A stretch of DNA of 64,000 bases from Micromonospora sp. NBC_01813 (GTDB taxonomy: Bacteria; Actinomycetota; Actinomycetes; Mycobacteriales; Micromonosporaceae), in the NCBI RefSeq assembly GCF_035917335.1, contig NZ_CP109067.1, forward strand, positions 3,595,001 through 3,659,000, given 5' to 3'. The first letter of the stretch is position 1. Each line of letters opens with the position of its first letter. The position numbers were made by a program, and so were the translations under genes. The notes beneath the pieces were generated by a model. That model did no database searches. It worked only from the letters and a program-made list of their open reading frames with translations, and was not told the DNA's origin. Shown in pieces: positions 33,249 through 35,062 of this stretch.

Positions 33249-34553
33249 TCAGGGGGCGAGGCGGTGCAGGTCGCGCGGGAATAGGGTGACCTGCCGGATG
33301 TTCGGTACGTCGAGCAGCCGGGCCACGAACCGTTCCAACCCGAACGCGAACCCGCCGTGCGGCGGCATGCCGTACCGCATCGCGTCCAGATAACCGGCGT
33401 ACGGCGTCAGGTCGGTCTCACCCCGCTCGGCGAGCGCCCGCACGTAGTCGCCGTACCGGTGCAGCCGTTGCCCGCCGCTGACCAACTCCACGCCCCGGAA
33501 GATCAGGTCGATGGCGCGCGAGTAGCCGGGCCGGGCCGGGTCCGGATGGGTGTAGAACGCCCGGTGCCGGGTCGGGTAGCCCTCGACGAAGACGAAGTCG
33601 CTGCCGTGCTCGCGCAGCGCCCACTGCCCCAGCCAGCGTTCGTGCTCCGGTGCCAGGTCCGACTCGCCGGTCACGTCCCGGCCGGTCGCCGCGCTGATCA
33701 TCTCCAGCGCGTCAGCGAAGTGCACGATCACCGGCTCGGCCGGCAACGCCGGCAGCCGTACGCCGAGCAACTCCACCGCCGGCCCGGCTCGCTCGGTGAC
33801 CGCCGCCAGCATGCCGACGACGGTGGCGTGGCAGGCGGCGATCACGTCCCGGTGGTCGTCGACGAAGCCGAGTTCGGCGTCGAGCGACGTGTAGGAGGCC
33901 AGGTGCCGGGCGGTGTCGCTCGGCTCGGCCCGGAACACCGGCCCGACCTCGAAGACCCGTTCGAAGACGCCGACCATGATCTGCTTGTACAGCTGCGGGG
34001 ACTGGGCAAGGTAGGCGCGTCGACCGAAGTAGTCGAGGGCGAAGACGTTCGCGCCGCTCTCGGTCGCCGTACCGACGATCTTCGGGGTGTGGATCTCGAC
34101 GAAGCCCATGCTGGTCAGGGTGTCCCGGAAGCCGGCGACGGCGGCGGCCGATATCCGATGCGTGGCGGCCAACTTCGGGTGCCGCAGCGCGACCGGCGCG
34201 TGGTCCAGGATCGTCGGCAGGTTGGCCCGCAGGTCCGGCCGATAAAGATCAAACGGTACGGGCACCGCCGGGTCGGTCAGCGGCGTGACCGACGGTTCGA
34301 TGATCTCGACGCCACCGGGGGCGGCCGGTTGGGCGGTCGCGGTGCCGGTGACGGTGACCGTGGTCTCCTCCGGCAGGCGTTCGAGCTGGGCCCGTACCGC
34401 CGGGTCGGTGACGACGACCTGGGCGAGCCCGGCGGCGTCGCGCAGGATCAGGAAGGCGACGGATTTCAGCAGCCGCCGCCGGTGAATCCAGCCAGCCAGC
34501 CGTACGGGCTGGCCAACGTGGGCGGGGAGTTGAGCGGAAAGGATGCGTTGCAT
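33249..34553 (-). CDS. aspartyl-tRNA synthetase, archaeal type (no GAD domain)
   Basis: Class IIb synthetase of 434 residues, far shorter than the roughly 590-residue bacterial AspRS because the GAD insertion is absent. It has an OB-fold (VRLAGWIHRRRLLKSVAFLI), motif 2 region VGPVFRAEPSDTARHLASYT with Asp-specific QSPQLYKQ, and motif 3 GFAFGLERFVARLL. Archaeal-type enzymes may charge both tRNA-Asp and tRNA-Asn. A housekeeping bacterial aspS probably exists elsewhere, so this is a second copy. It is preceded by a probable T-box, and the ATG at 34553 follows GGAGGAGGTCACCACC. Confidence 0.9.
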   Translation of the reverse strand: MQRILSAQLPAHVGQPVRLAGWIHRRRLLKSVAFLILRDAAGLAQVVVTDPAVRAQLERLPEETTVTVTGTATAQPAAPGGVEIIEPSVTPLTDPAVPVPFDLYRPDLRANLPTILDHAPVALRHPKLAATHRISAAAVAGFRDTLTSMGFVEIHTPKIVGTATESGANVFALDYFGRRAYLAQSPQLYKQIMVGVFERVFEVGPVFRAEPSDTARHLASYTSLDAELGFVDDHRDVIAACHATVVGMLAAVTERAGPAVELLGVRLPALPAEPVIVHFADALEMISAATGRDVTGESDLAPEHERWLGQWALREHGSDFVFVEGYPTRHRAFYTHPDPARPGYSRAIDLIFRGVELVSGGQRLHRYGDYVRALAERGETDLTPYAGYLDAMRYGMPPHGGFAFGLERFVARLLDVPNIRQVTLFPRDLHRLAP

Positions 34554-34559
34554 GGTGGT

Positions 34560-34845
34560 GACCTCCTCCGGTGTGCGCAACGCGTCCCCAGAGAGGTGTG
34601 GGCGAGCGGGATCCTCGCGGTGCCACCACACCTTCGCCGTGCCACCGCGTGGTGTACGCGGCACAGCCTTCGCTTACCCGTGACGTGGGCGAGTCGGCGG
34701 GAGTCTACTGAGCCCGGACGGGCTGTTCTTTCCCGCAGCTCAGGAGGGTCTTCACGGCTGGGCCGGAGTCCGCCCTCTCAGCTGTGGGCGGCTCTCTGTC
34801 ACTCCGGTGAGCACAACCGCTACTCGGCTCCGTCGTCGCTGTTGC
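34560..34845 (-). promoter_or_regulatory. T-box riboswitch upstream of the AspRS gene (probably translational)
   Basis: The leader contains TGGCACCGCG at 34616-34625, an exact match to the T-box core TGGNACCGCG that pairs with the free CCA end of uncharged tRNA. Upstream lie the stem-I hallmarks GAGTA (34821-34825), an AGAGAGCC bulge motif and CTGAGAGGG. A possible specifier GAC (Asp) occurs in GTGAAGACCCTCC. ACCTC (34593-34597) after the T-box can pair with the ribosome site GAGGAGGT, and no terminator U-run is seen, suggesting control of translation as in other actinobacterial T-boxes. No structure was computed. Confidence 0.75.
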
Positions 34846-35062
34846 CTGCAGACGTTAGCCGCTGACCGTCGCCGTCCGCATCCAGAATTCCGTCGCGCCG
34901 GCGACGTTTCGTGTTGCCGTACCGGCACGTGATCTTCCCGGAACGTGTATCGCGGGCGTATCGAAAAACGCATACGCCACCGCAACGGGCGTGCGTCTTG
35001 GATCAGGAACGAACCAGGGCGCAGCACTCGTCAGCGCACGGTTCGTCGACCGGGAAAGGAAC

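Follow-up and report, generated by a model that had tools for sequence, protein, structure and literature searches.

We think it very probable that the leader of aspS2 in Micromonospora sp. NBC_01813 senses uncharged tRNA-Asp as a translational T-box and controls a spare aspartyl-tRNA synthetase, AspRS2. The gene lies in the window, by which we mean the whole stretch of DNA analyzed (64,000 nucleotides of contig NZ_CP109067.1, positions 3,595,001 to 3,659,000). A T-box architecture, an Asp codon, a competing Shine–Dalgarno (SD) helix with covariation, the identity of the gene, and its being a second copy can all be read from the sequence, and from these we infer tRNA binding by the leader, the switch itself, and the role of the enzyme as an inducible spare. 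The leader belongs to a known kind of T-box; the series of reduced relatives described below is what is new.

Architecture of the aspS2 leader

When a 601-base stretch was searched with the Rfam T-box model RF00230, the full model (1–219) matched at 34595–34845 on the minus strand (48.8 bits, E 1.1e-9), and in a search of the whole 7.63-Mb genome the same leader (E 3.4e-9) was the sole match at E <= 0.001. Because its score lies below the Rfam gathering score of 93, the leader is absent from a routine scan, and the window-wide RF00230 scan at the gathering score listed nothing. A sequence-only reading of this DNA had proposed a T-box with the exact core and Stem I hallmarks, to be checked by Rfam and covariance, and both checks agree with it: besides the core, we could place Stem I, a K-turn region, AGUA, the AG bulge, Stem II, the IIA hairpin, Stem III, and the antisequestrator (Table 1), and the leader covaries with its relatives as a T-box fold. 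In an alignment of 35 diverse leaders with 58 pairs, 86.2% of cells were paired versus 76.8% after shuffling, double changes occurred in 40 of the 58 pairs versus 25.1, and the covariation score was 0.260 versus 0.129, with none of 500 shuffles reaching the observed value for any of the three measures. Stem I, Stem III, and the antisequestrator were backed by covariation; pairing was poor in helix 4 (distal Stem I, 51.3% of cells) and helix 7 (inner Stem II, 44.9%). The strands that we take to be the kink-turn of Stem I were assigned from the motif.

The leader appears to start near 34845, just 3' of a −10-like hexamer; among the reduced leaders described below, TAnnnT stood 10 to 32 nt 5' of the hairpin picked by our script, which is not always the decoder, in 27 of 34. 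The folding energy of the leader was no lower than that of shuffled sequences (z −0.23; 35 of 100 shuffles equaled it or fell below it), so the case for a T-box leans on the covariance model and the comparison with relatives. Given this value and the mixed hairpin probabilities of the reduced leaders, we dropped minimum-free-energy (MFE) folding as evidence.

Table 1 The aspS2 gene and the elements of its leader, in window positions
Feature	Positions	Strand	Basis
-10-like hexamer TAACGT, candidate promoter	34852–34857	−	Immediately upstream of leader; weak, TAnnnT is permissive
Stem I, long canonical form	34736–34841	−	RF00230 alignment; covariation of helices 1–5, helix 4 weak (51.3% of cells paired)
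Stem I kink-turn region, 5' strand	34830–34839 (3' strand 34738–34744)	−	Sequence and model alignment
Distal AG-bulge region CAGAGAG	34790–34798	−	RF00230 alignment; nearly invariant across 35 leaders
Specifier codon GAC (Asp)	34748–34750	−	Position from T-box model; GAAGAC columns invariant in the 35-leader alignment, whose rows were picked for GAAGAC
Stem II with S-turn-like GAAC / AGUAGA	34698–34735	−	Model alignment, covariation; missing in 20 of 35 aligned leaders
Stem IIA/B element, hairpin CCC..GGG	34667–34690	−	RF00230 alignment, covariation
Stem III	34636–34668	−	Helix 9: 95.1% of cells paired, double changes in 6 of 7 pairs
Antisequestrator GGUGUGG..CCACACC + GCGAG..CUCGC	34595–34632	−	Helices 10 and 11: 99.2% and 94.8% of cells paired
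T-box core TGGCACCGCG	34616–34625	−	
T-box bulge UGGC, complementary to tRNA-Asp GCCA end	34622–34625	−	Sequence and model alignment
Anti-SD ACCUCUCUGGGG	34586–34597	−	Overlaps antisequestrator 3' arm; partner-swap test
SD GGAGGAGGU	34561–34569	−	Sequence
aspS2 start codon	34551–34553	−	
aspS2, archaeal-type non-discriminating-type AspRS, 434 aa, without GAD domain	33249–34553	−	NF003483, Pfam, 1n9w

tRNA specificity and mode of control

The sequence-only reading had left open whether the specifier matches tRNA-Asp or tRNA-Asn, and the codon GAC settles this for Asp. The tRNA-Asp of the same genome has anticodon GTC, loop CUGUCAA, and discriminator G, and both T-box contacts fit it: GAC with GUC and UGGC with GCCA, where the CCA is assumed, not being genome-encoded. 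A tRNA-Asp sequence pattern matched 18 of 18 genomes, and ARAGORN identified tRNA-Asp in 12 of 15 loci scanned, with none in the three from genome G880. We considered that the T-box might instead sense tRNA-Asn, or tRNA-Asp and tRNA-Asn together, and so monitor the indirect Asn pathway, as the non-discriminating type of the enzyme might suggest. Two leaders point in this direction: the long-Stem-I leader L025 apparently carries AAC (GAACAACACTCC), as does L021, with loop CGUAACGAA versus CGUGACGAA in its close relative L022. Against this, GAAGAC occurs in the window leader and in 96 of the 144 leaders having the core by regular expression (regex), GAC occurs in 23 of the 24 aligned hairpins of reduced leaders (alignment A2, below), and the window leader shows no sign of a second codon. 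We therefore regard tRNA-Asn sensing as very improbable, and for the window leader we set it aside on its GAC codon.

The T-box of Clostridium acetobutylicum, which Saad reportedly described in 2012 and 2013, is said to govern redundant tRNA-dependent amidation in a Firmicute and to read tRNA-Asn in a two-codon form. The window system shares with it the link of a T-box to Asp/Asn transamidation and to redundant genes; it differs in that the codon shown is one for Asp and the gene downstream is AspRS2, standing alone.

Control at the level of translation, as the sequence-only reading had it, is best supported, because the anti-SD that overlaps the antisequestrator covaries with the SD across lineages and because no terminator-like site lies on the minus strand. 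The same reading had noted a segment able to mask the ribosome site, and this can now be made specific: ACCUCU of the anti-SD, whose ACC sits in the antisequestrator 3' arm, can pair with GGAGGU of the SD. Among 141 leaders with a recognizable 3' arm (39 after deduplication), true anti-SD:SD duplexes averaged −15.4 kcal/mol versus −13.4 (standard deviation 0.38) when partners were swapped, and none of 200 swaps was as strong. Such pairs include CACCUCC with GGAGGUG in L106, extended by GGUU with AACC, CCUCCAGG with CCUGGAGG in L156, and AUCUCC with GGAGAU in L213. By plain pair count, the covariation score of the six-pair core of this helix was reached by 116 of 500 shuffles; the core hardly covaries because the SD is nearly invariant.

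In the 94-nt 3' part of the window leader, the SD is paired in the predicted free MFE structure (−38.4 kcal/mol); the fold with the antisequestrator forced lies 1.9 kcal/mol higher, a difference of the kind that a tRNA could shift. With the antisequestrator forced, the predicted fold keeps GCGUUGC paired to the start-codon region, which is undesirable for a simple ON state and counts against the model. This GCGUUGC (34577–34583), kept in many Micromonosporaceae leaders, is complementary to AUGCAACGC (34545–34553) at the start codon; we did not take the 7-bp match as evidence since it pairs in the forced ON state too.

The leader could alternatively work by transcription attenuation, intrinsic or Rho-dependent, and not by ribosome-site masking. 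Most of the T-boxes described are transcriptional (PMC7583486), and GC-rich hairpins follow the core in T-boxes of some Chloroflexota and Bacillota relatives. The scan of 34400–35000 found no terminator-like site on the minus strand, against two on the plus strand, and intrinsic termination was set aside on this ground, with Rho dependence left as an improbable alternative. With the covariation of anti-SD and SD also speaking against it, attenuation appears very improbable, and we conclude that control is at translation.

In the mechanism that we propose, uncharged tRNA-Asp would pair through its GUC anticodon with the Stem I GAC specifier and through its GCCA end with the UGGC bulge, which would stabilize the antisequestrator, keep ACCUCU off the SD, and allow aspS2 to be translated. 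Charged tRNA-Asp would make no second contact, so that the sequestrator would form and aspS2 would be off. The product, a second AspRS beside the housekeeping GAD-type enzyme, could then, with GatCAB and no AsnRS found, provide Asp-tRNA-Asp as well as the Asn-tRNA-Asn precursor at times when aspartate or the main enzyme runs short.

Actinobacterial ileS T-boxes are described as translational, with a short Stem I and an apical-loop specifier (PMC7583486, PMC1262725), and a few translational T-boxes retain a long Stem I (PMC7583486), as the window leader does. As in these ileS T-boxes (Mycobacterium, Nocardia), a specifier and a UGGN bulge would read the tRNA here and an antisequestrator would compete with SD masking; unlike them, the window leader pairs tRNA-Asp with aspS2 and has a full-length Stem I with an AG bulge. 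Glycine T-boxes are described as being without Stem II (PMC7583486), and several long-Stem-I leaders of our set (such as L209 and L216) likewise run Stem I directly into Stem III. The latter differ in being Asp-specific and translational, and the reduced leaders also lack the long Stem I.

AspRS2, its gene, and its distribution

The sequence-only reading had described the enzyme as archaeal-type, GAD-less, and a second copy that may also charge tRNA-Asn, and had suggested looking for a full-length bacterial aspS and for gatCAB; its description holds, and a GAD-type AspRS and GatB were found. NCBIfam model NF003483 (aspartate--tRNA(Asn) ligase) matched AspRS2 with 508.8 bits (cut-off 353), the narrower TIGR00458 scored 346.9, just under its cut-off of 368.4, and Pfam found tRNA_anti-codon and tRNA-synt_2 domains only, with no GAD. 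The closest solved relative is Thermus thermophilus AspRS2 (1n9w). His24 and Pro79, anticodon-reading positions that we take as marks of non-discriminating archaeal AspRS, are each kept in 157 of 161 AspRS2 rows, five of which are non-actinobacterial. A search of the same genome with AspRS2 (E <= 0.001) gave five matches, namely, itself, the full GAD-type AspRS (two matches), an asparagine synthetase A-type protein, and a lysyl-tRNA synthetase, with no AsnRS among them. Each of the 38 AspRS2 genomes examined had a single GAD match and a single GatB match, which argues that AspRS2 is a spare copy. From the family assignment, the two residues, the lack of an AsnRS among the matches in this genome, and the presence of GatB, its tRNA specificity is probably relaxed, that is, the enzyme is probably non-discriminating, and the spare could feed both Asp- and Asn-tRNA formation. 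The likeness to T. thermophilus AspRS2 (1n9w, 3kfu) extends to an apparently non-discriminating, archaeal-type, GAD-less enzyme standing beside a bacterial AspRS; unlike in the window, the T-box core is absent within 450 nt of the gene in all three Thermus loci fetched (L074, L076, L086).

The asparagine synthetase A-type protein (L003, C1:1231920–1232891; NF005052, 417 bits, cut-off 368) is encoded in an apparent operon with methylaspartate-mutase-like and glutamate-synthase-like genes, names that we read from the translations.

Several observations concern the origin of the window copy. In a quick tree, its AspRS2 groups with Streptosporangiaceae and Virgisporangium (SH-aLRT 100), apart from most of its own family; the protein is 83% identical to one from Acrocarpospora; and the gene is not beside lipB or lipA, unlike 15 and 14, respectively, of the 24 loci compared. 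Acquisition of aspS2 by horizontal transfer along with its leader is probable.

T-box-controlled spare synthetases are known elsewhere; thrZ is one. AspRS2 might accordingly be a drug-insensitive enzyme induced against natural AspRS inhibitors and not a general starvation spare. The spare is phylogenetically of another type than the main enzyme, as such a role would favor, and Bacillus subtilis tyrZ, which figures in the reference list of PMC9437257, is a further example of such a spare. By our reading, no biosynthetic cluster is evident beside aspS2 in the listed window stretch, and the recurring neighbor in relatives is lipB (15 of 24 loci), not an antibiotic cluster. A role tied to an antibiotic cluster thus finds no support in the neighbors seen, and we consider drug insensitivity a doubtful explanation. 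The general starvation spare remains our reading: the leaders suggest that, across a large actinobacterial group, a putatively broad-specificity AspRS is switched on when Asp charging fails.

Within the family to which the window belongs, 291 of 354 genomes had an AspRS2 match (E <= 1e-60); the corresponding figures were only 21 of 394 for genomes sampled evenly across the class and 32 of 149 for genomes sampled from family f41 (E <= 1e-90 in both). This spread within the family, and the remodeling of the decoding domain in relatives, lay beyond the view of the sequence-only reading. A T-box was counted in 147 of 151 actinobacterial AspRS2 leaders, the 151 being 159 loci minus six duplicate upstreams and two under 280 nt. 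The core was found in 144 by a regex estimated to match a few percent of random upstreams; we subtracted L208, judged a chance match, and added by eye L204 with GGCAUCGCG and L151, L152, and L154 with ACCGGG, compensated in the helix. Neither regex nor reading found a core in L134, L163, and L214. Among 42 distant loci (L045–L086), the core matched in three only, at 230, 309, and 385 nt from the gene (450 nt upstream covered in most).

Individual leaders showed further variation. In L151, L152, and L154, ACCGGG stands in place of the normally constant ACCGCG, and the facing strand has changed to match (GGGAG/CUCCC), a natural compensatory change of the antisequestrator. The Micromonospora-type leaders L014, L119, L121, and L204 carry an inverted-repeat-like GGAAGGGCCCC...TTAAC in Stem II, which looks like the insertion of a small repeat element. 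The Bacillota AspRS2 leader L041, which has a T-box core, shows GGC (Gly) where its relatives read GAC (GAATGGCCCTCCGGAG). In a Dojkabacteria MAG (L081, 4625–4793), a T-box-like core, GAAGGTGGCACCACC, with a T run after it stands ∼230 nt before the AspRS gene (RF00230 15.8 bits, E 0.44). Genome G880, the source of L025, has fifteen matches to the 3' half of tRNA-Asp scattered over its contigs; ARAGORN called no tRNA at the three such loci scanned (L248, L253, L254), and the copies are possibly attachment sites of integrative elements.

Reduced leaders and the GAC hairpin

With some reserve, we favor the view that in as many as seven lineages actinobacterial Asp T-boxes repeatedly collapsed into a minimal hairpin decoder, possibly acting by UGACR/UGUCA kissing, and that this module can also precede the gene for GAD-type AspRS, which has the same function without being an ortholog. 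As proposed, the minimal decoder is a hairpin of three to seven pairs with a 7- to 9-nt loop, NNU-GAC-R, and without K-turn, S-turn, or long Stem I; it lies 65 to 112 nt (160 in L198) 5' of the UGGN bulge of an ordinary antisequestrator. As many as five base pairs (UGACR with UGUCA) could link this loop to nucleotides 33–37 in the anticodon loop of tRNA-Asp, and the resulting kissing complex would take over the docking role of Stem I and Stem II. A quick tree was built from 101 AspRS2 rows, with poor support at 31 of its 97 inner branches; with leader classes assigned by us, Stem I changes between long and reduced forms at least 10 times on it.

A set of 25 representative reduced leaders, in part closely related to one another, was examined for hairpins in which a 7- to 9-nt loop bears, where it would be expected, U and then a codon. 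U-GAC loops were present in 18 of the 25 versus 0.59 expected from dinucleotide shuffles, and the next codon, CGG, reached five; in one of the 18 (L104), the hairpin scored is apparently not the decoder. With a minimum stem of four pairs, GAC was found in 15 of 25 (0.42 expected). Among the misses, L198 has the hairpin upstream of the stretch tested, and L021, L022, and L159 have a 9-nt loop on a three-pair stem that failed the G+C filter. An apical-loop specifier was thus seen in the reduced leaders, not clearly so in L013, L104, and L153.

Alignment A2, which spans 17 bases and has 24 rows, 19 of them distinct, drew on leaders already showing hairpins, and this biases its percentage paired; for family f41 it takes in every reduced leader that was fetched, 12 in all. 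The loop, [ACG][ACG]U[GA]AC[AG]NN, is near-fixed, and the stem varies by compensation (GAGG/CCUC, GGAG/CUCC, GGGG/CCCC, GGGA/UCCC, GGCG/CGCC), with 15 cells showing double changes versus 4.3 after shuffling and a covariation score of 0.576 versus 0.210 (0 of 500 shuffles).

The reduced leaders could instead be decaying T-boxes that no longer read tRNA, their GAC hairpins being incidental. The predicted closing-pair probability of the hairpin was below 0.1 in eight leaders (L013, L159, L162, L175, L192, L199, L223, L227), as decay would predict, and RF00230 picks up just one of 19 reduced leaders. The probability was intermediate in another eight (L016, L140, L156, L164, L184, L191, L218, L228) and at least 0.81 in L113, L114, L129, L157, L158, L165, L167, L194, L200, L224, and L225; for L021, L022, L104, L185, and L188, the script took other hairpins and the values say nothing of the decoder. 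Decay sits poorly with the excess of U-GAC loops over the next codon and over expectation, with compensatory stem changes beneath a near-fixed loop that include all 12 fetched f41 leaders, with the retention of antisequestrator and anti-SD, and with the hairpins of two leaders found by their core only (L255 and L256, below). We consider it unlikely and keep to the minimal decoder.

Regex and reading detected neither a K-turn nor an S-turn signature in up to seven lineages, of which three (f51 and two branches of f41) join at forks with poor support: f41 (12 leaders), f51 (1), g56 (7), g59 (2), g18/20/65 (3), and the Catellatospora-type (11). One K-turn regex match in f41 (L224) was judged spurious, and six GUAGA regex matches beside GAGGCC in the Catellatospora-type were judged not to be S-turns. 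A K-turn-like signature is retained in three Nocardia-type leaders (with one GUAGA regex match, L022) and in L104, L013, and L153, and both signatures occur in g57 (3) and g24 (1). The reduced Asp leaders thus resemble the short-Stem-I ileS T-boxes in their apical-loop specifier, and many are without the K-turn and Stem II S-turn described for the solved ileS structures (PMC10651847).

The lipB and lipA neighbors (one of each verified against NCBIfam) occur at long-leader loci, such as L096, L097, and L105, as well as at reduced ones (L016, L104, L108, L113), and this synteny argues for remodeling in place. The reduced leaders are natural, ready-made test RNAs with full-length relatives of the same gene for comparison, those of the Micromonosporaceae even having the lipB neighbor in common, and an apparent AAC in one Nocardia species with GAC in a close relative offers a natural specifier difference. 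Most are missed by the Rfam model. For Actinobacteria, TBDB relied on a class II model of its own (PMC7778990), and it may already list the long-Stem-I Asp members. In the titles and abstract openings covered by our partial literature search, we found no account of an Asp T-box with AspRS2 or of a minimal T-box in actinobacteria.

An element of the same kind also precedes two GAD-type AspRS genes. In a core-only scan of the 394 class-wide genomes, 21 matched, 17 of them with the core directly upstream of AspRS2; the pattern misses four of the 21 AspRS2 genomes (G383, G505, G687, and the AspRS2 locus of G695). By reading, the matches in G386 and in G695, the latter away from its AspRS2, look like coding sequence. 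In G502 and G677, neither of which has an AspRS2 match at E <= 1e-90, the gene that follows the core encodes an AspRS of the bacterial GAD type, with NF001750 scores of 648.8 and 643.9 bits (cut-off 443) and a Pfam GAD match. Their leaders, L255 and L256, were found by the core alone and not selected for a hairpin, and 5' of the core they carry GGUGG[CGUGACGAC]CCACC and GGCGG[CGUGACGCC]CCGCC, respectively. The presence of the element before GAD-type AspRS in two genomes independently fits an Asp signal.
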